From a bacterium (GTDB lineage Bacteria > UBA9089 > JASEGY01): a DNA stretch of 38,867 nt. Both the position numbers and the translations under genes were made by a program. Shown here in pieces: positions 4,048 to 38,538 of this stretch. Each line of letters starts with the position of its first letter. Position 1 is the first letter of the stretch. The notes beneath the pieces were generated by a model that worked only from the letters and a program-made list of their open reading frames with translations, was not told where the DNA came from and did not search any database. Location: the NCBI GenBank assembly GCA_040753085.1, contig JBFMHI010000012.1, positions 1 to 38,867 on the forward strand, given 5' to 3'.

Positions 4048-4101
4048 AGTCAGAAGTCAGAGGTCTTCTGTCCTCTATCCTCTGTCTTCTGTCCCTGTTA
4101 C
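4048..4101. repeat. CT-rich heptamer array (TCCTCTG/TCTTCTG words)
   Basis: Read as consecutive 7-mers this is GTCAGAA, GTCAGAG, GTCTTCT, GTCCTCT, ATCCTCT, GTCTTCT, then GTCCCTGTTAC. It ends in GTTAC, the base of the family-A terminus. That GTTAC contains the stop codon (minus-strand TAA at 4098-4100) of the OmpA-family gene, so the array abuts the end of that gene. Confidence 0.6.
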
Positions 4102-5663
4102 TCTGAAGTCATAATCACTACTTCCACCCGCCGGTTCCTCCGGCGTCCTTCTTCGGTCTTGTTGCTGACCAGGGGCTCATTTCCCCCATAGCCCCTGATT
4201 GACAGCAGCCTGGGGGAGACATTCCCTTTCTCGATCAAATATTTCATTACATTATCGGCCCTGGCTTCTGATAATTGGAGATTAAGAAGGCTTGATTCTT
4301 CATCAGCTTCAGTGTGCCCTTCGATTATCACTTTTTTAAGTTGAGGATGCAGCTTAATGGCTTGAGCCACCGCATCCAATATATCAAAATACTCGGGTTC
4401 TACGGTTATTCTTAATCGAGGAAATGGTATGGGAAGAACCATTACCAACTTGCTGTCTTCCTTAATTACCTCTACCTCCTTATCTCTTAGATTTTTCAGG
4501 GCTTCCTCTAAATTGGCCGGTCCTGCCTTTTTTTCTTTCCCTATCACTTCCTCGGCCGGCTCTAATTTTGGTTTGGGTGATCTCTCTTTCTCCGTTATCT
4601 CCACCACAGGCATTTTTTCCTTTTCATCTCTTTTTTCACCGGTCGGGGCTTTAGCCTGTTTTTCCGCAGGTTCCGGCTTGGTTGGTTTTGGTTGATATAC
4701 CTCGGCCGCTTCAGGGATAGATAATTGGGCCTTATATTGGTTCAAGGCAGCGGCAAGCTCCTCTATTCTTTTTTCCGCCTTCTCTTTAGCGGCAACTGCC
4801 TCTTGTGTTTTTGCATGCGCCAGGAAGATTTCCTCTCTCAATTTATTTATCTCAGCCACTATTTCCTCGTTTTTCTGGGTTTCAGCTTCGATTTTTTGCC
4901 GGGCGGAAACCAGCTCCCCTTTTGCCTGGGCCAATTCACTCTGAAGGGCTTCAGACTCACTTTTTTGTTGCGCCAGGGCCAGGTCTCTCTTTGTTTGAGT
5001 CAATTCAGCCTGCAGGGTTTCCAAACGCTTCTCAGCGGCGGCGAGGTCGGTCTTAGCATTCTCGGCCATAGAGAGTCCTCGCTGCATCTCTTCCCGAGCT
5101 TTAAGGATTTCCTCCTTTTCTTTAAGGAGCAATTTGCTTTCCTTTTCCTGATCCGCTATGGTCTGTTGAGCCGCCTCAAGCTTAGCCCTGGCAGCCGAGA
5201 GTTCCCCTTGCATCTTTTCTTGATTCGCCATGGCGCCCTGAGCCGCCTTAAGCTCAGCCTGAAGACGGGACAATTCCCCCCTCAGTTTATTTACTTCTTC
5301 TTCCGCCTCTTTTCTGGCACGATCGGCCTGATCCGCCTTATCTCTTTGGGAAAATAGTTCTTGCCGCAGTTCTTCTATTCTTCCCCCCTTAATTCGGCTA
5401 AGGCCCCCTTTCTCTAAATTCTCTCGTTTTTCTTTCTCTTCTATAAGGTTACGCTCGGCTAAAGCCATTTCATCTTTAAGTCTGGCCAATTCCTTTTCGA
5501 TCTCATTAATGGTCTCTTGCGACTTTTTCTTAATGGCCTCTACCTTTTCTCTGGCTTCTCTGACCGCCTCATCTGTTTGGACTTGAGCCTCTCCCCCCAC
5601 CCTGCTCAAAAACAGGACCATAAAAATCAACCCGATAATAAAACTTAACCTTCTTCCTTTCAT
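4098..5663 (-). CDS. OmpA-family peptidoglycan-binding protein with long coiled coil
   Basis: A 521-residue exported protein. Residues 1-28 form a signal peptide (KGRRLSFIIGLIFMVLFLSR). Residues about 30-310 are a nearly uninterrupted coiled coil rich in Glu, Lys, Ala and Gln (AQAKGELVSARQKIEAETQK and similar). A Pro/Glu/Lys linker covers about 310-385. An OmpA C-terminal domain follows, with IIEGHTEADEESSLLNLQLS, the conserved LSEARADNVMKYL helix and EEGRRRNRRVEV. This fold anchors outer-membrane or periplasmic proteins to peptidoglycan. GTG plus three ATG codons compete as starts (5672-5663); ATG 5663 gives the best spacing from AAGGGG. It may act as a long periplasmic spacer; no beta-barrel is present. 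It is downstream of, and co-directional with, rpoN across a repeat cluster. Confidence 0.88.
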   Translation of the reverse strand: MKGRRLSFIIGLIFMVLFLSRVGGEAQVQTDEAVREAREKVEAIKKKSQETINEIEKELARLKDEMALAERNLIEEKEKRENLEKGGLSRIKGGRIEELRQELFSQRDKADQADRARKEAEEEVNKLRGELSRLQAELKAAQGAMANQEKMQGELSAARAKLEAAQQTIADQEKESKLLLKEKEEILKAREEMQRGLSMAENAKTDLAAAEKRLETLQAELTQTKRDLALAQQKSESEALQSELAQAKGELVSARQKIEAETQKNEEIVAEINKLREEIFLAHAKTQEAVAAKEKAEKRIEELAAALNQYKAQLSIPEAAEVYQPKPTKPEPAEKQAKAPTGEKRDEKEKMPVVEITEKERSPKPKLEPAEEVIGKEKKAGPANLEEALKNLRDKEVEVIKEDSKLVMVLPIPFPRLRITVEPEYFDILDAVAQAIKLHPQLKKVIIEGHTEADEESSLLNLQLSEARADNVMKYLIEKGNVSPRLLSIRGYGGNEPLVSNKTEEGRRRNRRVEVVIMTSE

Positions 5664-5689
5664 CATCATCACCCCTTATTTTAATTAAC

Positions 5690-5907
5690 GTAACCGTTCA
5701 GGTATGCACGAATTAGCACGGATAAATAACACAGGACAGAAGGCGGAAGTGTAGGGACAGGGCTTGTCCCTGTCCGTGCTTGTCCATGTCCGTTCCGTAG
5801 ACGGACAACCACAAGGGTTGTCCCTACAGCCTAAGGACAGACCCTAATCACGGACACGGCTCACGGATTTTCCGTATTTCATCTGTGTGCATCTGTGGCT
5901 GAAATGT
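5690..5907. mobile_element. Family-A element carrying a REP and CACGGA hairpin
   Basis: The left end is GTAACCGTTCAGG at 5690. The right end is GTGGCTGAAATGTAAC, which overlaps the next element, so the exact boundary is unclear. It contains GGGACAGGGCTTGTCCCTGTC, ACAACCACAAGGGTTGTCCC and CACGGA/TCCGT hairpins. About 120 bp (near 5788-5910) recur as an inverted copy at 38743-38867 with only a few differences. No clean target duplication was found. Confidence 0.6.
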
Positions 5908-5989
5908 AACTATTCAGGCAGATAGGCTGAAGGCTGAAGGCTGAAGTTCAATAGCCTTCAGCCTTCAGCCTATCCACCTGAGTAGTTAC
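5906..5989. mobile_element. Family-A heptamer hairpin (GGCTGAA word), 84 bp
   Basis: GTAACTATTCAGG at the left and CCTGAGTAGTTAC at the right bound a long hairpin. The arms are AGGCTGAAGGCTGAAGGCTG and its complement built from CCTTCAG heptamers, with a short AT loop. Related copies are at 7555, 31695, 33806 and 36769. Confidence 0.75.
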
Positions 5990-6008
5990 AATAAATTGTT
6001 AATTAGGT

Positions 6009-6149
6009 GTAAGCGTTCAGCCACTAAGGCACAAACTCGATGCTCGATGCTCGATCCTGGATACTGGATCCTTTACCAGCATCGAAGATCGAGCATCGAG
6101 GATCGAGCATCGAGCATCGAGCATCCAGCATCATGTGCTGAACGGTTAC
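6009..6149. mobile_element. Family-A heptamer hairpin (TCGATGC word), 141 bp
   Basis: GTAAGCGTTCAG at the left and CTGAACGGTTAC at the right. The left arm is heptamers TCGATGC, TCGATGC, TCGATCC; the right arm is their complements (CGAGCAT, CGAGGAT). It is the same as 36994-37120 except for 14 extra bases, exactly two heptamers. AATTAGGT occurs at 6001-6008 and again at 6160-6167, ten bases beyond the right end; this may be a displaced target duplication. It lies 12 bp past the rpoN stop. Confidence 0.75.
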
Positions 6150-6161
6150 GATAATCGATAA

Positions 6162-7532
6162 TTAGGTTATCTCTCGCCGGAGGTAAGAAGCCCTGACACC
6201 TATCTCTTCTCTGTATTTACTAACGGTCCGTCGGGCAACCTTTATCCCCTCTTTTTGAAGCAATTTCGTTATCTTGGAATCTGATAAAGGCCGCTTGGGA
6301 TCTTCCTTTTCAATCAATGTCTTTATCCGTTCCTTGACCTGAATAGAAGATGCCTGTTCGCCTCTTTTCCTATCCAGGCCGGAATCAAAAAAGTACTTCA
6401 GGGGAAGCATTCCCCACGGAGTCTGAGCAAACTTATTGGATATCGCCCTGGAGACAGTAGTGGCGTCAAGTTCTACCCTCTTAGCCACATCTTCCAGTTT
6501 TAGCGGTTTTAATCCCCGAGGACCGATTCTCAGGAATCCATCCTGAATATTAAAAATAGTTTTTGCCACCTTCATAAGCGTATTTTTACGCTGAATAATA
6601 CATTGCCTGAACCAGGCGGCTGACTTGATCTTTTCTCGAATATATTTAGCTACCCCCTCCTCTAAGCGGTCTTGTTTCAAAACATCTTTGTAGTATGAAC
6701 CGATTCGCAATTTAGGGATTTCACGATCATTTAATGAGACGACAAATTCATTATCCACCTCTTCCACGATTACATCAGGCGTAACATACACAATGGCCTC
6801 ATTTTCATATAACCGTCCTGGTTTTGGCTCCAGGGTGGATAAATCTTTAATTAGTTCTTTTACCTGAGCTAAAGGAATATTCATCTCTTTAACAATCTTA
6901 TCATATCTCCGGCGATAAATATCTTCCAGATGATTTCTGATTAAGGTGATAATAGGGGTATTGTCCCAACCAAGCTCTTTAGCCTGGATTTCCAAACATT
7001 CTTTCAAATCTCTTGACCCTACTCCAGGCGGGTCAAAGCCCTGAATTTTAGTCAACATCTTTTCCAGCTCAGACACATCTTCCTTTAAGCTGGCCGCTAA
7101 GGATTCCAGAGGCAGAGATAGATATCCATTGTCATCAATCTCCCCGATCAAAAACCTGCCTATGAAAAACTCTTTTTCAGTCAGAGACAAGGTCCTGAGC
7201 TGCCCCAACAAATGCTCTCTCAGGGAAGGGGTTTGGGTGACCAGATTCTCATAGTTCGGTTCCCATTCGAGGTCTGAGACGGTCCCAAAGGCCGGGAAAT
7301 CATCCTTCTTCTCCAGATATTTCTCCCAATCTATTTCAGGGTCCTCTGCCTTTTGTTTTGGCTTTTCTTCAATCTCTTCTCCTTCCAATTCCAGGACCGG
7401 ATTTTCCATAAGTTCGGTTTCTATTTCCTCTACAAGTTGTGGAGTAGAAAGTTGAAGAATATGGATAGCCTGCTGAAAAACCTGGGTGAAAATCAGTTGT
7501 TGTCTCTGGATCTGCTGGATGGTCTGTTCCAT
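6162..7532 (-). CDS. rpoN: RNA polymerase sigma-54 factor
   Basis: A 456-residue sigma-54. Region I is the Gln/Leu-rich N-terminus (QQAIHILQLSTPQLVEEI) that binds activators and silences the holoenzyme. An acidic region II follows (about residues 45-80). The core-binding domain covers about 85-270. The C-terminal DNA-binding part ends with the RpoN box ARRTVSKYR at 433-441, one substitution from canonical ARRTVAKYR, so -24 recognition is probably intact. No clear Shine-Dalgarno precedes ATG 7532. The leader contains a heptamer hairpin (7555-7652) and a strong sigma-70-like promoter lies at 7676-7704. It is divergent from a kinase/activator pair that is probably its regulatory partner. Confidence 0.95.
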   Translation of the reverse strand: MEQTIQQIQRQQLIFTQVFQQAIHILQLSTPQLVEEIETELMENPVLELEGEEIEEKPKQKAEDPEIDWEKYLEKKDDFPAFGTVSDLEWEPNYENLVTQTPSLREHLLGQLRTLSLTEKEFFIGRFLIGEIDDNGYLSLPLESLAASLKEDVSELEKMLTKIQGFDPPGVGSRDLKECLEIQAKELGWDNTPIITLIRNHLEDIYRRRYDKIVKEMNIPLAQVKELIKDLSTLEPKPGRLYENEAIVYVTPDVIVEEVDNEFVVSLNDREIPKLRIGSYYKDVLKQDRLEEGVAKYIREKIKSAAWFRQCIIQRKNTLMKVAKTIFNIQDGFLRIGPRGLKPLKLEDVAKRVELDATTVSRAISNKFAQTPWGMLPLKYFFDSGLDRKRGEQASSIQVKERIKTLIEKEDPKRPLSDSKITKLLQKEGIKVARRTVSKYREEIGVRASYLRREIT

Positions 7533-7554
7533 AACATTTTTAGGCCTTGATCAG

Positions 7555-7652
7555 CGTTTCGGCCATTTACCCCTCAGGGGGATAGGCTGAAGACTATCCC
7601 TAAAAGTCTTCAGCCTTCAGCCTATCCACCTGATTGGTGAGTGGCCAAAACG
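7555..7652. repeat. Heptamer hairpin with CGTTTYGGCCA ends in the rpoN leader
   Basis: The left end CGTTTCGGCCATTTACC is inverted against GGTGAGTGGCCAAAACG. Between them is the hairpin ATAGGCTGAAGACT...AGTCTTCAGCCTTCAGCCTA made of GGCTGAA-type 7-mers. The interior matches the family-A hairpins but the ends differ, so the hairpin core seems separable from the terminus. It lies between the likely rpoN promoter and start codon and would be transcribed. Confidence 0.65.
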
Positions 7653-7675
7653 ATGACCCTGGCCTTTTTGTTATA

Positions 7676-7704
7676 ATTATAGCAGATTAAATCGAATCTA
7701 TCAA
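7676..7704 (-). promoter_or_regulatory. Predicted sigma-70 promoter for rpoN
   Basis: On the minus strand: -35 TTGATA (7704-7699), 17-bp spacer, -10 TATAAT (7681-7676). This is five of six and six of six against consensus with optimal spacing. Transcription would run into rpoN with a leader of about 135 nt that includes the heptamer hairpin. Confidence 0.55.
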
Positions 7705-7779
7705 GAAAAAAATAAGCCATTGGCTATTGGCTAAAAAATAAGGTTGCATTTTTAAGAAAAATTTAGTAAGATAAGGAAT

Positions 7780-11412: not shown

Positions 11413-11437
11413 AACACACAATTAGTTGGCGAAAGAT

Positions 11438-11701
11438 TTCGACCTGTGCAATTAGAAATTGCAAGCACTTCCTTTCAAACCTGAAAGGTTTGAACTTCAC
11501 ATAGCCGTATGTGAAACATACGGTAACAAAAATATAAGTCAGCCCAACCCTGAAAGGGTTGAATGTTATGCGATGGACAATGTTCGACCCTTACAGGGTC
11601 GAGCGTTGCGGGTGTATTTATTTCCGTAGATTGGTATCTACGGCTATTTAAAATTTGACGCTTTCAGCGTCAGTAGGTTAAACCTAATTGCACAGGTCGA
11701 A
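11438..11701. repeat. Family-B element (TTCGACCTGTGC ends), copy 1
   Basis: TTCGACCTGTGCAATTAG (11438-11455) is inverted against CTAATTGCACAGGTCGAA (11684-11701). Between them is a string of small separate palindromes: AACCTGAAAGGTT, CAACCCTGAAAGGGTTG, TCGACCCTTACAGGGTCGA, CCGTAGATTGGTATCTACGG and GACGCTTTCAGCGTC. CGAAAGATTTCG palindromes join it to the next copy. Confidence 0.7.
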
Positions 11702-11705
11702 AGAT

Positions 11706-12058
11706 TTCGACCTGTGCGGTTAGGTTTAATTTACTAATTTGAGTTCTTTATATGCACCGAAGGTGCAAAGGAATTGTAGCCGTAGGTTTCAACTTACGGA
11801 ACATTGGATTAAAGTGGAATTAAGCCCCGCAGGGGCGAAGGAAAAGTTCGCGGTGGGCAAAAACTGGAAAAATCAACGCTCAAATTTATCCCTGATCGCG
11901 TTCATTGATCCTCATTTTTCCTGCGCCCCGTCGGGGCTTAATTTTATGGAACATTATCATTCCGTAGATTGAAATCTACGGCTAACATCCTGTAGCCCTT
12001 CGGGCTTTCATAATGATTTTATTTCAAAATAATGTATTTGATAACCGTACAGGTCGAA
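11706..12058. repeat. Family-B element (TTCGACCTGTGC ends), copy 2
   Basis: TTCGACCTGTGCGGTTAG at 11706 and GTACAGGTCGAA at 12047-12058 bound more small palindromes: GCACCGAAGGTGC, AGCCCCGCAGGGGC, GCCCCGTCGGGGC, CCGTAGATTGAAATCTACGG and AGCCCTTCGGGCT. It lies head to tail with copy 1, sharing the linker CGAAAGATTTCG. A 77-codon open frame inside it is an artefact of the repeats. Confidence 0.65.
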
Positions 12059-12069
12059 AAAAATCAGTG

Positions 12070-14509: not shown

Positions 14510-14662
14510 GTAACCGAAGGGTTTTTCTCCTTCTGTTCTCTGAGTTCTGTCTTCTGTTCTTCTTAATCCCCCGCCAGGGGAGGACACCCGCCTTTGACAT
14601 CTGTTCTCTGACCTTTGTCCTCTGCTATCTGCTTCCGTGCTAATCCGTGGCTGAATAGTTAC
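14510..14662. mobile_element. Family-A MITE with perfect target duplication, 153 bp
   Basis: It starts GTAACCGAAGG and ends TGGCTGAATAGTTAC. It is flanked by AAATAATG at 14502-14509 and 14663-14670, a perfect 8-bp direct repeat. The interior is CT-rich 7-mers (TTCTGTT, CTCTGAG, TTCTGTC; then ATCTGTT, CTCTGAC, CTTTGTC, CTCTGCT). It separates the permease stop from the TupA-like gene by insertion at the 3' edge of the permease gene. Confidence 0.8.
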
Positions 14663-15546: not shown

Positions 15547-15547
15547 A

Positions 15548-16738: not shown

Positions 16739-16934
16739 GTAACTGTTCAACCACAAAGACACTACACTAAGACACAAAGATTAAAGGATTATTTCTTAAT
16801 AGCTCAACAGAGCAGTAGCGCAGTAGTTAAAGACTTTTCTGAAAGTTTCAGAACTTCTGCTCTATTGCTCTAATATTCTCTACGATACATATTTTCCCCT
16901 TTGTGTCTTCGTGCCTTGGGGGCTGAACGGTTAC
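16739..16934. mobile_element. Family-A MITE with target duplication, 196 bp
   Basis: Ends GTAACTGTTCAACCACAAAG and GGGGCTGAACGGTTAC. It is flanked by CAATGGAG (16731-16738) and CAATGAAG (16935-16942), 7 of 8 identical. The arms carry AAGACAC-type heptamers; the interior has AGAGCAGTAGCGCAGTAG and its counterpart CTGCTCTATTGCTC. A close relative is at 31812-32040. It abuts the aminotransferase start. Confidence 0.8.
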
Positions 16935-18180: not shown

Positions 18181-18288
18181 GTAACTACTTGAAAGACAAA
18201 TACTTTACAATAACCTCTCGTCATTCCCGCCAAAGCGGGAATCCAGTAATATCAAGGCTTCTGGATTCCTGCTTGCGCAGGAATGACA
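18181..18288. repeat. Family-A terminus plus REP between HEPN and MNT fragments
   Basis: GTAACTACTTGA at 18181 is a family-A left end without a partner. At 18219-18288 is a palindrome of the CGTCATTCCCGCC / GCGGGAATCCAG type, with right arm CTGGATTCCTGCTTGCGCAG and GAATGAC. This REP type is common across unrelated bacteria. Together they sit where the end of the MNT gene and the start of the HEPN gene should be. Confidence 0.65.
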
Positions 18289-18523
18289 AAAAGTGGCCCG
18301 TAGAAATTATTTCTCCTGACTCCCATTCAATTTCGTAAAGGTGGTGGCGAATATTGTCCGTTCGTTGATCATCGACAGAACCATCAACTAAGATCAAGAA
18401 GTCCCAATCAGATTCAAGACCTTCGTCTCCTCGGGAACGAGAACCATAAAGAATAACTTCGGCTCCAGGTTCAACCTCGTGGATAGTCTCCTTTACCTTC
18501 CTTAGCAGTTCGTCGCGATTCAT
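18221..18523 (-). pseudogene. MNT-type nucleotidyltransferase with REP-derived C-terminus
   Basis: A 100-residue frame. Residues 1-75 are a minimal nucleotidyltransferase with GSRSRGDEG at 27-35 and metal-binding Asp39 and Asp41 (ESDWDFLIL). The family then expects about 30 more residues, but from about residue 78 the frame reads LSFLRKQESRSLDITGFPLW, the usual translation of the CGTCATTCC REP. The end was therefore replaced by the repeat. GGAGG lies ahead of ATG 18523. It is the antitoxin-type half of an MNT/HEPN pair whose other half is also broken. Confidence 0.75.
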
Positions 18524-18550: not shown

Positions 18551-19132
18551 CTCGATGTTCAAGTTTTTTCGACCTACACCCTCAGACTTTCAGGGGTTGA
18601 AACCGCTAAAGCGGTTATGATTCTGGATGTTATCCTATCCGTAACACCCTGATAAATCAGGGTGCTAAACTCATACCCCCCATAGTTGTGGAGATAATAA
18701 CCTGATTGAGGCGAGGCATAATGTTCTCCAAACTGTTACCAGTTTTTCAGCCCTTTTTTAGGGGATTTGGGACAATGCCCAATAATCCTTTAATCTTTGT
18801 GTCTTAGTGTCTTTGTGGCTGAACACTTACGAATAAACTTTGAGAAAGCACAAAAACGAACCCTCAAAGATTGATCACCCTTTTGTCGGCTGAATGAATT
18901 TTGTTAGGCTTCGCTAGTGATAGTACAACTGATATTCTGCTTACCGAGAAAAAACTACTTGACCTGTGCGTTTAGTTTAGGCCTATCTTTAGCCCCAGCG
19001 GGGCGACGTATGTAAAGAACATATCGCTCCGCTGGAGCTAACCTTAGATTGTTTGACCAGAGGCTATAAACATCCCGCCTCGCTGGGGCTGAAAAGCTAA
19101 TCGCGTAGGTCGAAAAAAACTTGAACATCAAG
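18551..19132. repeat. Composite family-B region with 27-bp outer inverted repeat
   Basis: CTCGATGTTCAAGTTTTTTC continuing GACCTAC (18551-18577) is inverted against GTAGGTCGAAAAAAACTTG (from 19105) to 19132, nearly perfect over 27 bp. Inside are ACCGCTAAAGCGGT, CACCCTGATAAATCAGGGTG, a family-A right end (CTTTGTGGCTGAACACTTAC, 18811-18830), and a second family-B unit 18959-19114 with AGCCCCAGCGGGGCG and CGCTCCGCTGGAGC palindromes. It has no gene. Confidence 0.65.
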
Positions 19133-19138
19133 TAAAAA

Positions 19139-19191
19139 GCGGTAATCAGTTATTACCGATTACCGCTCACCCATTACCGCTCACCGATTAC
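19139..19191. repeat. Heptamer array (ATTACCG/GCTCACC words) at the pilQ end
   Basis: GCGGTAATCAGTTATTACCG then ATTACCG, CTCACCC, ATTACCG, CTCACCG, ATTAC: a 7-bp word repeated with changes, with a short inverted copy at the left. It begins seven bases past the pilQ stop on the minus strand and could form a transcript-end hairpin. Confidence 0.55.
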
Positions 19192-19197
19192 TAGTCT

Positions 19198-22520: not shown

Positions 22521-22530
22521 TTCTTTATTA

Positions 22531-22567
22531 ATTATCAATTATTAATTAATAGTTAATAATTGATAAT
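22531..22567. repeat. Perfect AT-rich palindrome before pilO
   Basis: ATTATCAATTATTAA (22531-22545) is perfectly inverted as TTAATAATTGATAAT (22553-22567) with a 7-base loop. Similar AT words border the elements near 31790-31810 and 32041-32055. It lies between the PorV-like gene and pilO within the operon and could form an mRNA hairpin a few bases ahead of the pilO start. Confidence 0.6.
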
Positions 22568-22573
22568 GGTTAA

Positions 22574-23503
22574 TTAAAATACCACCCTCAGGGTAACCCA
22601 ATGCACCGTCCCAAAGGTATCCCCCAAGGAAGAAGCCGCATAATCAAGATGGGCCACCACTCCCTCAAACATCTTGCCTCCGGAATCATACAAGCCTAAT
22701 CCACCTGAAAAGCCGGCCTCACCACCCTGCTTCTCATCCCTGGTTTGATAGCCCAGTCTTAAAGCAAAAGGGGCCCGTTTAAGTTCAACTCCGCCTTTTA
22801 TTTTCAGATCACTGGCCTTGACCTTTTCCAAATCACACACCAGGGTGGCCTTATTATTCAAATCATAAGACACACCGCCTCGAAAAGTCAGAGGCAAATC
22901 GCTTTCTTCCTCAAGGGGCTTTAAGCCCCCTCCCAGGTTAATGACCGCCAAGCCAAGACCTAAAGCCGGAATAGGCCGAATAACACCCCCCAGATCAAAG
23001 GCTATACTCGAATCTTCTTCACCATCCAGCTCTTCATGGATCTGCTTAATGGTCGCTCCCAAAGCCATCTTGTCCCCTAATCGTTGACCCACAGACACCC
23101 CAACCCACCGGCTATTTACCTCTACCTCACCCATAGCCGGTCCGGGCCCATTTCTTTTTTCATCAATGCCGCCCATCTTAGTTAACACCAGGCCGAACCC
23201 CAGACCGGTCCCCGTGGCCGCAATAGGTATACCCACCCCCATGAATTCAGCCCTGACATCTTCAATCCACTCCACATGACCAGCCCCCATTTCTCGGCTT
23301 TTCAGGCCGGCCAGCCCAGCCGGATTCCAATGGATAGCCGTGAAATCAGACGCCATCGAAGTATAGGCGCCGCCCAGGCCTGCGGCCCTGGCCCCTTGAT
23401 CGAGTCCAATTATATTGTCCGCCGTGGTTCCCACTCCATCCGCATAAACCACCTTAGCCAAAATTATCAACCAAAGAAAGGTTATTCCTCCCGCCTTCTT
23501 CAT
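22574..23503 (-). CDS. PorV/PorQ-like outer-membrane beta-barrel protein
   Basis: A 309-residue outer-membrane protein of the PorV/PorQ (UPF0164, FadL-like) group. A signal peptide (ITFLWLIILAKVVYA) is followed by GLDQGARAAGLGGAYTSMAS and AIHWNPAGLAG, the conserved FadL/PorV N-terminal block. Alternating amphipathic strands rich in Gly follow and the protein ends VHWVTLRVVF, with the terminal Phe usual for barrels. In Bacteroidetes PorV shuttles type-9-secreted cargo to the surface. Here it sits two genes after a giant protein with a type-9-like C-terminus, within a pil operon. GAGGAGG lies before the ATG, inside the preceding small gene. The pairing suggests a cargo relation; this is inference. 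Confidence 0.85.
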   Translation of the reverse strand: MKKAGGITFLWLIILAKVVYADGVGTTADNIIGLDQGARAAGLGGAYTSMASDFTAIHWNPAGLAGLKSREMGAGHVEWIEDVRAEFMGVGIPIAATGTGLGFGLVLTKMGGIDEKRNGPGPAMGEVEVNSRWVGVSVGQRLGDKMALGATIKQIHEELDGEEDSSIAFDLGGVIRPIPALGLGLAVINLGGGLKPLEEESDLPLTFRGGVSYDLNNKATLVCDLEKVKASDLKIKGGVELKRAPFALRLGYQTRDEKQGGEAGFSGGLGLYDSGGKMFEGVVAHLDYAASSLGDTFGTVHWVTLRVVF

Positions 23504-31681: not shown

Positions 31682-31694
31682 CTCTTCTCCTCAA

Positions 31695-31789
31695 TTAACA
31701 ATTCTCAGGTAAATAGGCTGAAGGCTGAAGTTCAATAGCCTTCAGCCTTAAAAGCCTTCCACCTTCAGTCTATCCACCTGAGTAGTTAC
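31695..31789. mobile_element. Family-A heptamer hairpin between pilM and pilN
   Basis: A degenerate left end (TTAACAATTCTCAGG) and clear right end CCTGAGTAGTTAC (to 31789). The stem is AATAGGCTGAAGGCTGAAG against CTTCAGCCTTAAAAGCCTTC and CTTCAGTCTATCC. It is the same word family as 5906-5989. The left boundary is uncertain by a few bases. Confidence 0.65.
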
Positions 31790-31811
31790 CAATTATCAAT
31801 TAATAATTGGT

Positions 31812-32040
31812 GTAAGTGTTCAGCCACAAAGACACTAAGACACAAAGATTAAAGAATTATTTCTTAATAGCTCAACAGAGCAATAGCCCAGTAGTTAAAG
31901 ACTTTTCTGAAAGTTCCAGAACTGCTGCTCTATTACTCTACTGCTCTCTAAGACACATACTTTTTAATAAGTAACATATTAAAATTGATTAAAAAACCAA
32001 ACTCTTTCGTGTCTTCGTGCCTTGGTGGCTGAACGGTTAC
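31812..32040. mobile_element. Family-A MITE inside the pil operon, 229 bp
   Basis: GTAAGTGTTCAGCCACAAAG at the left, TGGCTGAACGGTTAC at the right. The arms have AGACACT, AAGACAC, AAAGATT heptamers; the interior repeats the CAACAGAGCAATAGC and CTGCTCTATTACTC words of 16739-16934. TAATAATTG occurs at 31801-31809 and 32041-32049, but two bases separate the left copy from the terminus, so the duplication is not certain. It lies 13 bp past the pilM stop. Confidence 0.75.
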
Positions 32041-32053
32041 TAATAATTGATAA

Positions 32054-33184
32054 TTATGCTTTTTCGTATCCCACCAACCCTCTCAGGGCCAAACCAGCGC
32101 TGACGGCAAAAGCCGGCGCCACCTTGCTAATATACTTTAGATCAACGCCGGCCGTATCGATATGGATCCTTTTAAAAGGATTATTTATTTCCACCGGTAT
32201 CCCTAACCCATTAGATAAAAAGCGATCCAGGTTAGGCAGGCGGCTCGAACCGCCATTAAGCACCACCCGGTTAACCGTCTTTTTATGTATCTGGGTATGG
32301 GCATAATAATAGGCAAAAGATCTATCTAATTCTCCTAACAGCTTGGTAGCTATGGTCCCGATAGCCTCGTTAACTCTGGAAGTCCGGTCCCCCTCGATAG
32401 CTCTTGCTTCTGCTTCGCCTTCCATAGATATACGTCCCTGTTCTTCCTTCAATGCCTCGGCTGCCTGGAAATTTAACCCTAACTCCTCAGCAATAGACTT
32501 GGTGAAATCATTTCCTCCGACCAGAACATCCCGATTAAAAGATGATCTTTTGCGTTCAATAATATTAATATTGGTTACCCTGGCCCCAATATCAATCAAG
32601 GCAATAATTTCATTTTCTTCTTTTATCCCGCTGCTGCCAGAAAGTTCCCAGGAATCTTCTACGGCTAAGGTATCAACATTAATAGACTGGGGTTTTAAAT
32701 TAGCCCTCTTCATAATCTCCATATGTTGGCCAATGATTTCTTCCTTGGCCGCTACCAGGAGGACCTCAATCTTCTTTTCCCCTCTTTCCACAAATTCACG
32801 CAGTATCTCACAATCCAGCACTACCTGCCGAACATCAAAGGGAATATACCCCTCCGCCTCAAACCGAATTACACCCCTGAGTTCCTTTTGAGTCATATAG
32901 GGAAGGACAATATATCTAACCACTACCGAGGTCCCTCCGACTGAGGTATAAACGCTTTTAGTTCTTATCTTGCTTTGCCCCAGGACCCTCTTGATGGCCT
33001 TGGCGGTCAGATCTGTCCTGGCTTCGGAAACCTCGTCGGGAATAGGGCTGGGAGATAGTTTGCTCATACCCAGATTAGCCAGCGAAATCCCGCGCCTGGT
33101 TTGCCTTAGTTGAACCGCCTTGACTGTATCACTGCTTATATCCAGGCCGACGGCTGTTTTTCCACCACCAAGACCAAATAACAT
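32054..33184 (-). CDS. pilM: Type IV pilus actin-like ATPase PilM
   Basis: A 376-residue cytoplasmic protein with the FtsA/actin fold. N-terminal VGLDISSDTVKAVQL is the phosphate-1 loop. GGTSVVVRYIVLPYM and LRGVIRFEAEGYIPFDVRQV are the PilM-specific 1C-like region. IALIDIGARVTNINII is the second phosphate loop and VVLNGGSSRLPNL the adenosine motif. It ends FAVSAGLALRGLVGYEKA. PilM binds the PilN tail to form the cytoplasmic ring. ATG 33184 is preferred over an upstream in-frame ATG (33223) because GAGAGGGG lies just ahead of it and the longer N-terminus is translated repeat sequence. It is the first gene of the pil operon, with a promoter at 33478-33506. Confidence 0.94.
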   Translation of the reverse strand: MLFGLGGGKTAVGLDISSDTVKAVQLRQTRRGISLANLGMSKLSPSPIPDEVSEARTDLTAKAIKRVLGQSKIRTKSVYTSVGGTSVVVRYIVLPYMTQKELRGVIRFEAEGYIPFDVRQVVLDCEILREFVERGEKKIEVLLVAAKEEIIGQHMEIMKRANLKPQSINVDTLAVEDSWELSGSSGIKEENEIIALIDIGARVTNINIIERKRSSFNRDVLVGGNDFTKSIAEELGLNFQAAEALKEEQGRISMEGEAEARAIEGDRTSRVNEAIGTIATKLLGELDRSFAYYYAHTQIHKKTVNRVVLNGGSSRLPNLDRFLSNGLGIPVEINNPFKRIHIDTAGVDLKYISKVAPAFAVSAGLALRGLVGYEKA

Positions 33185-33197
33185 AATTTCCCCTCTC

Positions 33198-33305
33198 TTG
33201 CTCGATGCTCGATCCTCGAGCATCGAGCATCGAGCATCGAGTATCGAGCCTCGAGTATCGAGTATCGAGCATCCAGCATCGAGGATCGAGCATCGAGCAT
33301 CCAGG
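33198..33305. repeat. Heptamer array (CGAGCAT word) in the pilM leader
   Basis: About fifteen consecutive 7-mers: TCGATGC, TCGATCC, then TCGAGCA, TCGAGCA, TCGAGTA, TCGAGCC, TCGAGTA and similar, ending with CATCGAGCATCCAGG. The word family is that of 6009-6149 and 36900-37120, but the GTAAC ends are missing. Self-complementary CTCGATGC/GCATCGAG words allow several hairpins. It lies in the untranslated leader between the likely promoter and pilM. Confidence 0.7.
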
Positions 33306-33477
33306 ATTGTTTGGTTGCAGCGGGAGGCCGCCCTATGTTCACCCCGTCAGGAATAAATTTTTAGCGGGATAAATCTACCTCCCCCCAAAAAAAAGATTTT
33401 TTCACCTACGGATGCCTTCCAAATAACCCAAGATAAAATATTAAGTTAAGATATAGTATATGCGAATAATATGGGTA

Positions 33478-33506
33478 AGTATAGCATACTTAAAGCCAAA
33501 AGTCAA
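33478..33506 (-). promoter_or_regulatory. Predicted sigma-70 promoter of the pil operon
   Basis: Minus strand: -35 TTGACT (33506-33501), 17-bp spacer, -10 TATACT (33483-33478), preceded by TG one base upstream (TGC-TATACT, an extended -10). Each hexamer matches five of six. The leader to pilM is about 285 nt and includes the CGAGCAT heptamer array. Confidence 0.6.
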
Positions 33507-33586
33507 CAACTTTTTTCCCAATGGGAGACAGATTCAGAACAACAATCTTGACGTGTCTTTTCAATATTTCGGGGGAAGTCAGTAAT

Positions 33587-33680
33587 TTGGTAATCGGTAA
33601 TCGGTAACAACTAATTACTGGCTACTTCTCACCGATAACCGATAACCAATAGCCGATGAGCGATAACCGGTCACATAGTT
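33587..33680. repeat. Heptamer hairpin (GGTAATC/CGATAAC words)
   Basis: TTGGTAATCGGTAATCGGTA on the left and ACCGATAACCGATAACC plus GCCGATGAGCGATAACCGG on the right, all in 7-bp periods, bracketed by TCGGGGGAA on the left (about 33569) and TTCCCCCGA on the right. It lies between the divergent pil and coiled-coil promoters. It has no GTAAC terminus. Confidence 0.55.
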
Positions 33681-33761
33681 CCCCCGATTTACTGAAGATA
33701 CATCTTTACATTTTAGTTGGGCTGAACGGCAAAATTAGAATTCGGATTAGCAACTTATCTC

Positions 33762-33789
33762 TTGACAAATTTGGGCTGGCATGTTATCT
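33762..33789 (+). promoter_or_regulatory. Predicted sigma-70 promoter of the coiled-coil gene
   Basis: TTGACA (33762-33767), 16-bp spacer, TTATCT (33784-33789): six of six and four of six. A leader of about 145 nt would follow, containing the small GTAAC hairpin at 33806-33851. Confidence 0.5.
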
Positions 33790-33805
33790 TATATAAAAGT
33801 GTCTT

Positions 33806-33851
33806 GTAACTAAAAGCCTTCTACCTTCCGTCTATCTACTTGAGTAGTTAC
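33806..33851. mobile_element. Short family-A remnant in a leader, 46 bp
   Basis: GTAACTAAAAGCC at the left and TGAGTAGTTAC at the right, with GCCTTCTACCTTCCGTCTAT between. The right arm matches the GGCTGAA-word elements (CCTATCCACCTGAGTAGTTAC type) while the left arm is mostly deleted. There is no target duplication. It sits between promoter and start codon. Confidence 0.55.
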
Positions 33852-33938
33852 GTTTTATTTTCCTACACCTTTTTCTTTGAAGGCGTCAGGGGCTTGAGGG
33901 AAATAGGTTATTATTCTATAAGAATAGGGAGTTTGAAT

Positions 33939-34925
33939 ATGATGAGTTTTTCTGTAATAAGAGAAAGATTAGGTGAGGTGTTTGAAAAGTATCAGGCAGA
34001 TGTCCTTGCCACCACAATCTTTGATGCCTATAACGACCTTGTAAAGGTATCTGACTTTAGCGAGCTTAAAGATATTGTAAAGGAGCTTGCAGTTGCTCAG
34101 AAACGAACCGAGGCAAGAGTTGAGGAGCTTGCAGTTGCCCAGAAGAAATCAGAAGAAAGGCTTACAAGGGTTGAAGTAGCAATTGAGGAGCTTGCAGTTG
34201 CCCAGAAGAAATCAGAAGAAAGGCTTACAAGGGTTGAAGTAGCAATTGAGGAGCTTGCCGCTGCCCAAAAACGAACCGAGGCAAGAGTTGAGGAGCTTGC
34301 AGTTGCCCAGAAGAAATCAGAAGAAAGGCTTACAAGGGTTGAAGTAGCAATTGAGGAGCTTGCCGCTGCCCAAAAACGAACAGAGGCAAGAGTTGAGGAG
34401 CTTGCAGTTGCCCAAAAACGAACAGAGGCAAGAGTTGAGGAGCTTGCAGTGGCTCAAAAGAAAACAGAGATAGAAATCCAGAAACTTACAGAAAAAGTTG
34501 AGGATCTTACAGAAGGTTTAAAAGAAACCAGAGGAGAGTTGGGGGGATTATCAAGGAGTATGTCTTATGCCTTTGAAAATGAAGCATATAGAATGCTCCC
34601 TGGGTTATTAAAGACAAATTATGGTATTGAGATGACCGCGAAGATAATAAGAACAAAGATAAAGGGGAAGGAGATAAATCTATTTGGAAGGGCCAGAAGA
34701 AATGGCAATGATGTCCTGATTGTAGGAGAGGCAAAATTAAGGCTTGAGAAGAAAAAACACGAAAAGAAGGATGTCTTTGAGGAACTAAAAAAGAAAGTAG
34801 AAGCAGTAGAAAAGACTTATAAAGAAGAAATAGTAAAAATACTAATAACCCATTATGGAGAACCAAATCTTATTGAAGAAGCAAGACGAAAAGGGATAAT
34901 TGTTATTCAAAGCTTCGAGTGGTAG
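33939..34925 (+). CDS. Coiled-coil protein with PD-(D/E)XK-like C-terminal domain
   Basis: A 328-residue soluble protein. Residues 1-45 ([20 protein letters not shown]) resemble the head of DUF3782-type proteins. Residues about 46-195 are a coiled coil of exact repeats: 14-residue [14 protein letters not shown] and 21-residue units with [18 protein letters not shown]. Residues about 205-328 look like a PD-(D/E)XK nuclease fold, with [20 protein letters not shown] and GEAK (Glu264, Lys266). The position where an Asp is expected (I-D-L) is Asn here, so activity is uncertain. ATG 33939 (or 33942) follows GGGAG by seven bases; an upstream in-frame ATG at 33840 lies in repeat sequence. It is a single gene between repeat blocks. 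Confidence 0.75.
34082..34460 (+). repeat. In-frame 42/63-bp tandem repeats in the coiled-coil gene
   Basis: Units GAGGAGCTTGCAGTTGCCCA recur every 42 or 63 bp, nearly identical at DNA level. All unit lengths are multiples of 21 bp, one heptad, so gain or loss of units keeps frame and coiled-coil register. Near-identity means recent expansion or gene conversion. Confidence 0.8.
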
Positions 34926-35027
34926 TCAAATAATAGTGGAAATACCATCTTGGAAGGTGTGGCTTGGTGGCCGGGCCCCTTTCTGAAGGGCTCACTCTAC
35001 CTGCCGTTCAACGTAAGTAGGCCCCCA

Positions 35028-35170
35028 AGTGGTCTGTCACGTGTGATTTGACCTGTTCGTCTCTTAGAGAAGCAATCCCCCCTCACCTTAATCCTCTCCC
35101 CTTAGGGGAGAGGGTCAGGGTGAGGGGGCAAAAGAGGCTTTACCCACAATTTCAAGCGTGACAGAGCACT
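35028..35170. repeat. Nested palindromes upstream of rplU
   Basis: The outer arms are AGTGGTCTGTCACG (35028-35041) and CGTGACAGAGCACT (35157-35170), 13 of 14 complementary. The inner hairpin at 35077-35128 is CCCCCTCACCTTAATCCTCT with CCCCTTAGGGG loop and AGAGGGTCAGGGTGAGGGGG. The inner type recurs at 36199-36325. It ends 24 bp before the L21 start and could be transcribed as leader. Confidence 0.65.
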
Positions 35171-35194
35171 AGTGATAAAAGAAAGAGGTGATAT

Positions 35195-35515
35195 ATGTTG
35201 TATGCCGTCGTGGAAGAAGGAGGAAAACAGTACCGAGTGGAAGAGGGCGACCGAATCCGGGTGGATCGGATTAATTGTCCTCTGGGAGAGAGGGTAGAAT
35301 TGGACCATGTCTTGCTAATAGCTGATAAAGACCATCTTCACCTTGGGCAGAAACTTAGCTCGGCCAGGGTTACGGCCGAGGTGGTGGAACAATCAAAGGG
35401 CAAAAAGATTACTGTCTTTAAGTTCAAGAAGAGGAAAAACTACAAGCTCAAGCGTGGTCATCGTCAACCCTATACCTGGCTTCTTATTCGAGAGATACAA
35501 CCTGGTCTGCAATGA
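35195..35515 (+). CDS. rplU: Ribosomal protein L21 (bL21)
   Basis: A 106-residue large-subunit protein. MLYAVVEEGGKQYRVEEGDR, VLLIADKDHLHLG, and the basic C-terminus FKFKKRKNYKLKRGHRQPYT are the family blocks in order. The length is normal. AGAGGTG lies before the ATG. It overlaps prp by 4 bp (ATGA), the conserved rplU-prp linkage. Confidence 0.96.
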   Translation: MLYAVVEEGGKQYRVEEGDRIRVDRINCPLGERVELDHVLLIADKDHLHLGQKLSSARVTAEVVEQSKGKKITVFKFKKRKNYKLKRGHRQPYTWLLIREIQPGLQ

Positions 35516-35859
35516 TTAAGGTTTACTTTGATCGAGATGCCCAGGGAAGGATTGTGGCCTTTGAGACAAAAGGTCATGCCCTCTATGCTGAGCCAGGGCG
35601 AGATATTGTTTGTGCCGCTGTATCAGCCCTCCTCCAGAATGTGGTGGTAGGTCTTAAGCAATATCTTGGCTTAGAAATCGACCACCAGAAAAATAAAGGT
35701 TGGATGAGGGTCTCTATTAGAGGGTTTAAGGGTAAGGAGAAAGAGGCGGCCGCTCTCTTGGAAACAATGGCCTTAAGTCTCCGGGCCATAGCGGGAGAAG
35801 AAAGATATCAGGGTTATGTAAAAGTGTATGGAAGTGACGAGAGGGGGGAATTTATTTGA
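35512..35859 (+). CDS. prp: Ribosomal-processing cysteine protease Prp
   Basis: A 115-residue protease that in Firmicutes and relatives cleaves an N-terminal extension from L27. The catalytic motif is complete: GHALYAEPGRDIVCAAVSAL with His22 and Cys34, the same numbering as characterised Prp. The C-terminus (LETMALSLRAIAGEERYQGY) matches. It overlaps rplU by 4 bp and the next gene by 4 bp. The L27 encoded downstream begins [10 protein letters not shown] with no extension to cleave, so the usual substrate is missing here. Confidence 0.92.
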   Translation: MIKVYFDRDAQGRIVAFETKGHALYAEPGRDIVCAAVSALLQNVVVGLKQYLGLEIDHQKNKGWMRVSIRGFKGKEKEAAALLETMALSLRAIAGEERYQGYVKVYGSDERGEFI

Positions 35860-36113
35860 GGGCTGCCCTTGACACCTTAAATATTTATGAACGATTAAGA
35901 GATGCGCACCTGGATGATTTGGCCGCCAAAGAAATTGCCGAAGTTATTAATGAGGTGACCAAGACCTATTTGGCTACCAAGGGTGATGTGGAAAAAGCAA
36001 AAATTAAATTAAAAGCCGAGATTGAAAAGGCAAAAGTCAAAATTATAAAGTGGGTGGCGGGTATGTTAGCCGCTCAGGCGGCGATAGTGGCCACTTTGGT
36101 TAAGCTTTTGTAG
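35856..36113 (+). CDS. DUF1640-like coiled-coil membrane-anchored protein
   Basis: An 85-residue protein with TTG start overlapping the prp stop (TTGA) and AGGGGGG eight bases upstream. A helical N-terminus (LRDAHLDDLAAKEIAEVINE), a coiled coil of Lys/Ala/Glu (TKGDVEKAKIKLKAEIEKAK) and a C-terminal membrane helix (GMLAAQAAIVATLVKLL) make it a DUF1640 / CCDC90-type protein. These are usually found near mobile or defence loci, not in ribosomal operons. It has been inserted between prp and rpmA. Function unknown; a membrane tail-anchored oligomer is inferred. Confidence 0.75.
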   Translation: MRAALDTLNIYERLRDAHLDDLAAKEIAEVINEVTKTYLATKGDVEKAKIKLKAEIEKAKVKIIKWVAGMLAAQAAIVATLVKLL

Positions 36114-36143
36114 CTGAAGATTGACTCCCACTAATCCGCCATT

Positions 36144-36441
36144 CGAAATGTAACTACTCAAAACTAAGTTAAGCAGTTAGTTGGGAGACAAAGCAAAATT
36201 CCCTCTCCCTTGATGGGAGAGGGATAGGGTGAGGGTGAAATGGGCGGGCAATATTATTACTCTTGCTAAAAACCTTAGAAAAAGAGCTACCACCCTCCCC
36301 TAACCCCTCCCATCAAGGGAGGGGAAGCTCTTAGGCCGACGCTGTCGGGACAAAAGGAGATGGAACTTAACCCATAGCACTATAATCTGTAATGAGCTTA
36401 CTTTTTTAACTTGATTTTGAGTAGATACTTCGAAATCTACC
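36144..36441. mobile_element. Insertion with 10-bp flanking direct repeats before rpmA
   Basis: ATCCGCCATT occurs at 36134-36143 and 36442-36451. Inside the boundaries are inverted CGAAATGTAACTACTCAAAA and TTTTGAGTAGATACTTCG arms, then TTAA-rich words. The interior has CCCTCTCCCTTGATGGGAGA hairpins and ACCCCTCCCATCAAGGGAGG. The GTAACTACTCA word relates it to family A, but the ends differ. It lies between the DUF1640-like gene and rpmA. Confidence 0.6.
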
Positions 36442-36470
36442 ATCCGCCATTGAAAAGGAGGTGATTAAGC

Positions 36471-36722
36471 ATGGCCCATAAAAAAGGAATGGGTAGTTCC
36501 CGTAACGGCCGGGATAGTAATGCCCAAAGATTAGGCGTAAAACGGCACGATGGGCAATTTGTTACGGGAGGAAGTATTCTCGTCAGACAGCGAGGGACAA
36601 GATTTTTCCCGGGAAGAAATGTTGGTCGGGGCAGCGATGATACCCTTTTTGCCAAGGTCTCCGGTTTCGTTAACTTCATTCAATCAGGGGGTAAAAGGAG
36701 AATAGAGGTGATTGAAGGGTAA
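36471..36722 (+). CDS. rpmA: Ribosomal protein L27 (bL27), no N-terminal extension
   Basis: An 83-residue large-subunit protein starting [20 protein letters not shown], with [20 protein letters not shown] and a normal C-terminus. Its N-terminal tail reaches the peptidyl-transferase centre. AAGGAGGTGATTAAGC precedes the ATG, and an in-frame TGA lies three codons upstream, so a Prp-cleavable leader (usual motif ending FF/A) cannot be encoded. That is notable because prp is 0.6 kb upstream in the same cluster. Confidence 0.96.
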
Positions 36723-36768
36723 AAAGCATGTGGCCAAGAGCACTGAGCATAGGTTTTGAGATAGACTC

Positions 36769-36886
36769 GTAATTACTCAGGTAGATAGGCTGAAGACTGA
36801 AGGCTGACGACTGAAGACTGACGTCAAATCATCTGCTCTCCGCATTTATTCCTAAAAGCCTTCAGCCTATCCACCTGAGTAGTTAC
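36769..36886. mobile_element. Family-A MITE with target duplication (GGCTGAA word), 118 bp
   Basis: Ends GTAATTACTCAGG and CCTGAGTAGTTAC. The flanks are ATAGACTC (36761-36768) and ATAGACTT (36887-36894), 7 of 8. The left arm is GGCTGAA, GACTGAA, GGCTGAC, GACTGAA, GACTGAC, clean 7-bp words. The right arm is shorter (CCTTCAGCCTATCC). Confidence 0.8.
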
Positions 36887-36899
36887 ATAGACTTTAAAG

Positions 36900-37120
36900 G
36901 TAAGCGTTCAGCCACTAAGGCACAAAGACACAACCTCGATCCTCGATCCTGGATGCTCGATTCTGGATGCTCGATCCTGGATACTGAATCCTTGTAAGCG
37001 TTCAGCCACTAAGGCACAAACTCGATGCTCGATGCTCGATCCTGGATACTGGATCCTTTACCAGCATCGAAGATCGAGCATCGAGGATCGAGCATCGAGC
37101 ATCATGTGCTGAACGGTTAC
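36900..37120. mobile_element. Family-A element pair with perfect target duplication (TCGATCC word)
   Basis: The outer left end GTAAGCGTTCAGCCACTAAG starts at 36900, a second left end at 36994, and the shared right end CTGAACGGTTAC finishes at 37120. CTTTAAAG flanks it at 36892-36899 and 37121-37128, perfect 8 of 8 (though the octamer is itself a palindrome). The part 36994-37120 equals 6009-6149 minus 14 bp. It inserted next to the 36769-36886 element. Confidence 0.8.
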
Positions 37121-37129
37121 CTTTAAAGA

Positions 37130-37191
37130 CAGGTAAGTAGACAGTAGGCATTTATAAGAGAAGACCGCTGTCTACTGCCTACTGCTTACTG
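37130..37191. repeat. Heptamer hairpin (CTACTGC word) abutting the obg start
   Basis: CAGGTAAGTAGACAGTAGGC on the left and TGTCTACTGCCTACTGCTTA then CTG on the right form a stem with an 18-base loop; the words TCTACTG, CCTACTG, CTTACTG are 7 bp. The stem ends four bases before the obg ATG, where a ribosome site should be. Confidence 0.65.
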
Positions 37192-37195
37192 ATAA

Positions 37196-38479
37196 ATGTT
37201 TATAGACCAGGTGGAGATTCAAGTTAAAGGAGGCGACGGGGGCAACGGTGTCGTAAGCTTCAGGCGTGAACCCTTTGTTCCTTACGGAGGGCCTGATGGC
37301 GGCGACGGAGGAAAGGGGGGCGATGTCATCCTGAAGGCTGATCCTGGGTTAAACACCCTGGTCGATCTTCAATCTCGGATTTGCTGTCGGGCTCAGAATG
37401 GCCGAGCCGGCGGTCCTAAAAAACAATTCGGGGCAAATGGGCAAGATATAGTTATTCCGGTCCCGGTAGGCACAGAGGTATATGAAGTGGAGCATGGAAA
37501 CCGGCTGGCCGATCTGACCGAACCAGGCCAGGAGATAATTGTCGCTTACGGTGGCCGAGGAGGAAGGGGAAATACGCATTTTGCCACCAGCACCAATAGA
37601 GCACCCCGTCAGGCTGAGCCGGGTGAGGAAGGAGAGGCCTTTACCCTTCGATTGGAACTGAAGCTCCTGGCTGATGTGGGATTATTAGGCTACCCCAATG
37701 TGGGGAAGTCAACCCTGCTTTCCCGTCTGTCCCGAGCACGACCTAAGATCGCACCTTATCCTTTTACTACTCTTTCTCCTAACTTAGGCATCGTTAAAAT
37801 TGAAGACTGGAAATCTTTTGTCCTGGCGGACATACCCGGACTTATCGCCGGGGCCCACCGGGGAGTCGGTCTGGGAGATAGATTTCTGCGCCACATTGAA
37901 CGCACGCGCCTCTTAATTCACCTTTTAGACGGTTCGGCTGCCGCCGCCGTAGATTCTTTTTATTCTCTAAATAAAGAATTGCAGCTTTACAATCCAACCC
38001 TGGTGGAAAAACCGCAAATCATAGCCGTCAACAAGATGGATCTGGCGGAGAGCCAACAAAACTTCGACCAAATAAAAGAATCACTTTCGACTTATTCGAT
38101 TTTTCCCATCTCGGCTCTAACTGGCCAGGGGTTGTCTGAGCTGGTAAAAGAGGTGGACGGACAACTGAGTCAGTTGCCGCTTCCAGAGAAAAAACCTGTG
38201 TCGGTCTGGAAAAAGAGATACGGAGCGCCTAAGACGAAGCCTGCTTTTACCATACGCCGAGAAAAAGGGATTTATATCCTTAGCGGTAGCCGGATTGAGA
38301 AGGCGTTAGCTATGGCCGATCTGAAGACCCACCAGGGACTTGAGACCTGGAGAAAGGCTCTGAACCGAATGGGAGTAAATGAAGCCCTCCTCCAAGAGGG
38401 AGTGAAGATAGGGGATACGGTCCTCATCGGAAAAGTCGAGTTTGAATTCCAACCGGAAGACAGAGGGCAGAGGTCATAA
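37196..38479 (+). CDS. obg: GTPase Obg (ribosome assembly / stress)
   Basis: A 427-residue GTPase acting in 50S assembly. The N-terminal glycine-rich Obg domain (1-157) starts MFIDQVEIQVKGGDGGNGVV. G1 is GYPNVGKST at 165-173, G2 within PFTTLSPNLG, G3 DIPGLI, G4 NKMD at 279-282, G5 ISAL. A C-terminal OCT domain (about 350-420) follows. The start is fixed by homology, but no Shine-Dalgarno precedes it: a heptamer hairpin ends four bases away. The last residues (PEDRGQRS) are translated from ACAGAGG/GCAGAGG heptamers, so both gene ends touch repeats. Linkage rplU-rpmA-obg is standard. Confidence 0.95.
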   Translation: MFIDQVEIQVKGGDGGNGVVSFRREPFVPYGGPDGGDGGKGGDVILKADPGLNTLVDLQSRICCRAQNGRAGGPKKQFGANGQDIVIPVPVGTEVYEVEHGNRLADLTEPGQEIIVAYGGRGGRGNTHFATSTNRAPRQAEPGEEGEAFTLRLELKLLADVGLLGYPNVGKSTLLSRLSRARPKIAPYPFTTLSPNLGIVKIEDWKSFVLADIPGLIAGAHRGVGLGDRFLRHIERTRLLIHLLDGSAAAAVDSFYSLNKELQLYNPTLVEKPQIIAVNKMDLAESQQNFDQIKESLSTYSIFPISALTGQGLSELVKEVDGQLSQLPLPEKKPVSVWKKRYGAPKTKPAFTIRREKGIYILSGSRIEKALAMADLKTHQGLETWRKALNRMGVNEALLQEGVKIGDTVLIGKVEFEFQPEDRGQRS

Positions 38480-38538
38480 GACAGACGACAGAGGAGGGCC
38501 ACACCGGGCTGATTTCTGACTTTTAACCTCTGACCTGG
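38462..38538. repeat. Heptamer array (ACAGAGG/TCTGACC words) at the obg end
   Basis: ACAGAGG, GCAGAGG, TCATAAG, ACAGACG, ACAGAGG in 7-bp steps, then inverted-sense words TTCTGAC, TTTTAACC, TCTGACC. It overlaps the last codons and stop of obg. The words are complements of the array at 4048-4101. Confidence 0.55.

Follow-up and report, generated by a model that had tools for sequence, protein, structure and literature searches.

Repeat elements of the window

The stretch of DNA described here (the window) is contig 12, 38,867 bp long, of a 3.05-Mb draft genome assembled in 250 contigs (GCA_040753085.1, contig JBFMHI010000012.1), from a bacterium of a small phylum. Hundreds of small transposable elements and repeat stretches lie between the genes of this uncultured bacterium. 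In the window they include hairpins of tandem 7-bp words (heptamers), some of which end in GTAAC. A sequence-only reading had taken this shared terminus, found on hairpins with unrelated words, as a hint of a process that writes or amplifies 7-bp units. The analysis presented here separates the two components: the terminus is the end of a transposon of the IS66 type, and the heptamer arrays are a phenomenon of their own.

Several elements carry the terminus as a terminal inverted repeat (TIR). The IS66-type TIR element GTAACCGTTCAAC..GCTGAATAGTTAC at 3346..3539 consists of 8-9-bp words, with period 9 at 3453-3488 according to TRF (used for tandem repeats in the window), and its target duplication is not preserved. 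Two TIR elements stand at 5906..5989 (GTAACTATTCAGG..CCTGAGTAGTTAC, with GGCTGAA heptamer arms) and at 6009..6149; the latter has CGATGCT arms, is 141 bp long (1 mod 7) and represents one of about 102 copies of its end. At 14510..14662, a miniature inverted-repeat transposable element (MITE) of the IS66 type, containing CTTCTGT/CCTCTGT heptamers, has a degenerate left end, GTAACCGAAGGG, and an exact 8-bp duplication, AAATAATG. Words of period 8, not 7, make up both the IS66-type MITE at 16739..16934, whose duplication CAATGGAG/CAATGAAG has one mismatch, and the TIR element GTAAGTGTTCAGCC..GGCTGAACGGTTAC at 31812..32040 (CACAAAGA). A GGCTGAA hairpin at 31695..31789 combines a degenerate left end with the right end ..CCTGAGTAGTTAC. 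Two further IS66-type MITEs are located at 36769..36886 (GGCTGAA arms; duplication ATAGACTC/ATAGACTT with one mismatch) and 36900..37120 (CGATGCT arms; exact 8-bp duplication CTTTAAAG at the outer ends). Inside the second of these, another left end, GTAAGCGTTCAGCCACTAAGGCACAAA at 36994, looks like an internal duplication or a nested insertion. The left end GTAACCGTTCAGCCACAGATG.. of one more IS66-type element, at 38743..38867, is cut by the contig end.

Most of the other repeats have no GTAAC ends. Periodicity at the sites cited in the sequence-only reading was assessed by lag-7 self-match, compared with 500 mononucleotide shuffles. The repeats without these ends comprise the CTTCTGT/CCTCTGT hairpin at 4045..4100 (match 0.63, p 0.002), a GGCTGAA hairpin at 7575..7640 within a larger inverted repeat (7542-7665), the ATTACCG hairpin at 19137..19192 (0.63, p 0.002), an AATAATT period-7 array at 22525..22576, the GGTAATC/CGATAAC hairpin at 33585..33672 (0.64) and the CAGTAGG/CTACTGC hairpin at 37130..37192 (0.54). 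The CGAGCAT/CGATGCT hairpin at 33198..33302 (0.84), likewise without these ends, lies at the start of a pilM-like open reading frame (ORF), 32054-33223. A degenerate ACAGAGG/CCTCTGA hairpin at 38455..38540 (0.52, p 0.002) overlaps the 3' end of an obg-like ORF, 37196-38479. An Rfam scan of the window gave no matches.

Abundance and words of the heptamer arrays

Arrays were counted in 748 of the 3053 kb of the genome, namely in the window and 40 further stretches. This census, which covered periods from 4 to 12, contained 164 period-7 arrays, and the third-order Markov control contained none; periods 4-6 and 10-12 yielded 0-6 arrays each, period 8 yielded 22 and period 9 yielded 19. There were 116 lag-7 runs of at least 12 matches (none in a first-order Markov control of the intergenic part), and intergenic autocorrelation peaked at 7, 14 and 21, which is the signal expected from the sequence-only reading. 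Only 11 of 95 placed array clusters lie inside ORFs. Tandem 7-bp units are over-represented, mainly between genes, as in heptameric simple sequence repeats. The bias towards seven letters is strong and genuine.

The claim that the period stays at 7 throughout was correct for 12 of the 14 sites cited for it (p 0.002 to 0.010): GGCTGAA at 5906, 31695 and 36769 (additionally at 7575), CGATGC/CGAGCAT at 6009, 33198 and 36930, TCCTCTG at 4048 and 14510, CTACTGC at 37130, ATTACCG at 19139, GGTAATC at 33587 and ACAGAGG at 38462. Both AAGACAC sites proved to have period 8, with lag-7 p values of 0.58 and 0.98 and lag-8 matches of 0.53 and 0.76; TRF likewise gives period 8 at 31825-31848. The notion of a different word in each element was overstated, as the 164 arrays fall into 112 clusters with 36 canonical words and, by eye, roughly 14 families, among which CGATGCT dominates. 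Their description as hairpins applies to about two thirds of the arrays: an inverted partner within 150 bp was found for 107 of 161, against 1 of 161 with shuffled flanks. Four hairpins folded as DNA were far more stable than shuffles (z -9.6 at 6009, -12.6 at 5906, -7.6 at 33198 and -3.6 at 37130).

Relatives of the window genome, whose phylum was represented by 19 species, were sampled at 14-127 kb each. In the genomes G000, G001 (a congener of the window genome), G013 and G018, arrays occur at 210-232 per Mb, with words other than those of the window genome. In shorter stretches of 20 genomes outside the phylum, the density was 27 per Mb, mainly owing to a single genome, G034. In that genome, 7 period-7 arrays without GTAAC ends lie within 20 kb (L158, 1105-1293 and 12425-18451), including an inverted GGGACCA/CCCTGAT pair and AAGGCGG arrays.

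The shared terminus

The terminus GTAACYRTTCAGCC occurs in 363 exact copies in the genome, and its reversed pattern in none. Paired inverted ends (67 pairs) enclose 52-462 bp. Insertion sequences of the IS66 family are characterized by GTAA ends and 8-bp target duplications. Of the 67 pairs, 24 are flanked by an exact duplication of 8 bp where the expectation is 0.33, and lengths of 5-7 or 9-12 bp show no excess. A search based on GTAA/TTAC alone found 39 exact duplications at length 8, compared with 5, 1, 2 and 0 at lengths 6, 7, 9 and 10, and other tetranucleotide pairs gave 0-2. An empty site was also identified: G013 carries ATAAAAAAATCTTATATTG at the place where G018, a genome about 98% identical to it, has two copies of AAAAAATC with a 235-bp element between them.

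Within the phylum, IS66 transposase genes (PF03050) of G009 and G006 lie inside paired GTAACTACTCAGG or GTAACCGTTCACA ends. In G009, the gene for a transposase of 522 amino acids (aa) occupies L092:569-2137, with ends at 485 and 2221, and in G006 a gene for 468 aa occupies L093:1375-2781, with ends at 1339 and 2843. IS66 genes with similar ends are present in G013 and G007. Since the ends around these genes match those of the small elements, the GTAAC..TTCAG terminus is identified as the TIR of IS66-type MITEs. It is separate from the making of heptamers. A literature search for the terminus sequences returned unrelated papers only.

The terminus encloses interiors that are unlike one another, including heptamer hairpins, hairpins of 8-9-bp words and a MITE family without arrays whose length is constant (184 bp in 5 of 5 copies). 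Many heptamer arrays, including those in an unrelated phylum, have no GTAAC ends. Across G000, G001, G013 and G018, TIR density ranges from 126 to 677 per Mb while array density stays similar. Because of this, and because the arrays of G034 have no TIR, the arrays are independent of the TIR. The sequence-only reading was thus right that 7-bp units are amplified, and it was mistaken in treating the terminus as the mark of that process. In one orthologous gap with flanks about 97-98% identical, G018 has a TTACCAT heptamer hairpin (L083:18600-18800) and G013 has a GTAAC-ended element instead (L087:2627-2930).

Changes in array length and sequence

The CGATGCT element, whose CACATGATG-type end is found 102 times in the genome, allows copies to be compared. 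Its 41 complete copies are 99-379 bp long, with residues modulo 7 of 1 (25 copies), 2 (14) and 3 (2). Inspection of the sequences revealed that most copies with residue 2 or 3 are longer by one or two 8-bp units (TCTTTGTG), which belong to an 8-mer array next to the heptamers. Copies shift by 7-bp and 8-bp steps, so the size of the step corresponds to the unit of the array concerned. The variation in 7-bp steps anticipated by the sequence-only reading is therefore present, and length changes by whole units, as in heptameric repeats.

The left arm of this element contains 2-41 units and the right arm stays at 1-5, the two counts being only weakly correlated (rho 0.32, p 0.06). Unit order is not mirrored between arms in a test of modest power for short arms (0.876 vs 0.871 shuffled, p 0.32). 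The arms expand independently, and the idea of one arm templating the other was not borne out.

Comparisons between genomes add a record of sequence change. The hairpin between rpmA and obg, in a stretch of 3,972 bp with 98.4% identity, has the same number of units in G013 and G018, and three consecutive right-arm units read TTTCTAC in G013 and TCTCTAC in G018, with the same C/T change in each. In the pilM gaps, both the window genome and its congener G001 have arrays with wholly different words. A GAAATTG hairpin of G001 (L173:2644-2842) has GTAACCGTTCAC-type ends and a target duplication with one mismatch. A CAGAAGT array of G018 (L083:10492-10531), apparently within a reading frame, has equal length in G013.

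Other repeats were noticed in the window. ORF 33840-34925 contains, at 34051-34470, in-frame tandem repeats of 42/63/105 bp in coiled-coil-like coding sequence; these repeats are nearly identical and therefore recently expanded. Around CGACCTGTGC(A/G)(A/G)TTAG, at 11440-12060 and 18960-19120, there is a family that looks dispersed; it includes palindromic pieces and has no GTAAC ends. The inverted repeat CGTCATTCCCGC..GCGGGAATCCAG at 18213-18294 is another dispersed-looking palindrome type.

Origin of the elements and alternative explanations

We consider it probable (about 0.78) that two independent, overlapping things are present: the termini of IS66-type MITEs, and heptamer arrays that change by slippage or exchange of units. 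An IS66-type transposase supplied in trans would move the MITEs, as the same-ended transposase genes of sister species suggest; their insertion duplicates 8 bp, as the flanking duplications show. Within each arm, arrays lengthen or shorten by whole units, as the CGATGCT copies show, most likely through slipped-strand mispairing or unequal exchange. Such turnover may let words drift in concert and come to differ between species, while transposition would disperse element copies along with their arrays. The inverted arms probably begin in the context of a terminal repeat or palindrome, or by fold-back synthesis. The data fit slippage or unequal exchange, which suffices to account for the amplification, and do not fit an enzyme that writes 7 bp.

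Several points weigh against this explanation. The IS66 transposase (PF03050) was not found in the window's own draft assembly, where present mobility is unproven; multicopy insertion sequences may be lost at contig breaks, and an autonomous element in the same genome is not strictly required of a MITE. Around the IS66 copies examined in relatives, an intact target duplication was not seen. Neither slippage nor unequal exchange was observed directly, and slippage alone accounts neither for 7 over 6 or 8 nor for the frequent inversion of arms. The modest power of the arm-mirroring test counts on the same side.

A more far-reaching reading is a general, unrecognised step of bacterial replication or repair that would create or retain duplications of just this length, 7 bp, in the two arms of palindromes and in unrelated phyla. 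We regard it as rather improbable; if it were true, the many copies of these MITE families, whose common origin is known, would record the step copy by copy.

It is unlikely that selection acts on the heptamer hairpins as binding sites or as RNA structures (for regulators or terminators), with a protein footprint setting the 7 bp. The mostly extragenic position of the clusters and the presence of arrays in orthologous gaps of both G001 and the window agree with selection, and regulatory roles have been proposed for the heptamers of Geobacter and Beggiatoaceae (PMC2700814, PMC4679880). Against it, the words at one and the same gap are entirely replaced between congeners, and one protein could hardly read so many of them. 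The arrays occupy 70 tandem, 10 divergent and 4 convergent gaps, compared with gap shares of about 73, 16 and 11 percent; a terminator role was rejected, as convergent gene ends are not enriched.

A dedicated writer could add 7-bp units and use one arm as the template for the other; examples would be a hairpin-guided polymerase or a reverse transcriptase that carries a short template. The rank of period 7 above all other periods, the many unrelated words and the common hairpin arms speak for such an enzyme. Nevertheless, we hold it to be very unlikely: the window's own assembly yielded neither an RVT_1 reverse transcriptase nor a Y1 (REP-type) transposase, and the two arms vary independently of each other, both in length and in the order of their units. 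Moreover, where these elements contain 8-bp arrays, those arrays vary in steps of 8 bp, so it is the existing unit and not a fixed 7 that sets the step. Least probable of all are palindromes like repetitive extragenic palindromes (REP) or bacterial interspersed mosaic elements (BIME), spread by a REP-associated tyrosine transposase, which would match the dispersed intergenic palindromes, some without GTAAC ends, but whose gene (PF01797) was not found in the draft assembly, and which the ends and 8-bp duplications of the DDE IS66 type contradict for the GTAAC class.

Significance and relation to known systems

About a hundred copies of one element, many with marks of age (target duplication, end divergence) and with 7-bp and 8-bp arrays side by side in a single element, constitute a natural experiment. 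It would let gain and loss be counted per unit length, which bears on the question why, among the long simple repeats of bacteria, heptamers are the most common. In most bacterial genomes, heptamers are reported to be the class of long repeats with the highest abundance (PMC4692102, and a finding cited by PMC4679880); the main published proposal found for the number seven, given in both papers, is the stretch of DNA that the polymerase contacts. The case also warns that hairpins otherwise unlike may share an end simply because it belongs to a transposon.

The elements resemble IS66-family insertion sequences and MITEs of the single-ORF type in their GTAA-starting ends, 8-bp target duplication and same-ended transposase genes in the phylum. 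Unlike IS66-family insertion sequences, they are non-coding, measure about 50-490 bp and have, in many cases, interiors of inverted tandem words. No description of IS66 MITEs of this kind was found in the literature searched.

Heptameric repeats, including inverted pairs, are already known in other bacteria. The GGGAATC repeats of Xanthomonas form intergenic heptamer arrays, often in close convergent (inverted) pairs, at positions shared by relatives and with variable length and sequence (PMC4692102). The arrays described here are likewise mostly intergenic, often paired in inversion and variable between relatives; in Xanthomonas, however, each genome studied has a single G-rich word, and transposon ends are not reported (PMC4692102), in contrast to the roughly 14 word families and the transposon carrier found here. 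With the short tandemly repeated repetitive (STRR) sequences of cyanobacteria the arrays share tandem degenerate heptamers between genes, but words and host differ, and inverted pairs are few in Nostoc (PMC4692102). An identity with cyanobacterial STRR was rejected: the CCCCA(A/G)T-type word is absent among the genome's own words, and the host belongs to a small phylum, not to the cyanobacteria. The hepta- and octanucleotide elements of Geobacter metallireducens are similar in that they are multicopy and consist of 7- or 8-mers in tandem, in some cases on both strands; they are interpreted as regulator sites, and the portion consulted of that report mentions neither transposon ends nor unit-step variation (PMC2700814). 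The TAACTGA repeats of Beggiatoaceae are also abundant intergenic heptamers, but consist of one word in direct repeats near start codons (PMC4679880). What is new in the present case is the presence of many word families in one genome, their carriage by transposable elements and the way in which individual copies document the gain and loss of units.

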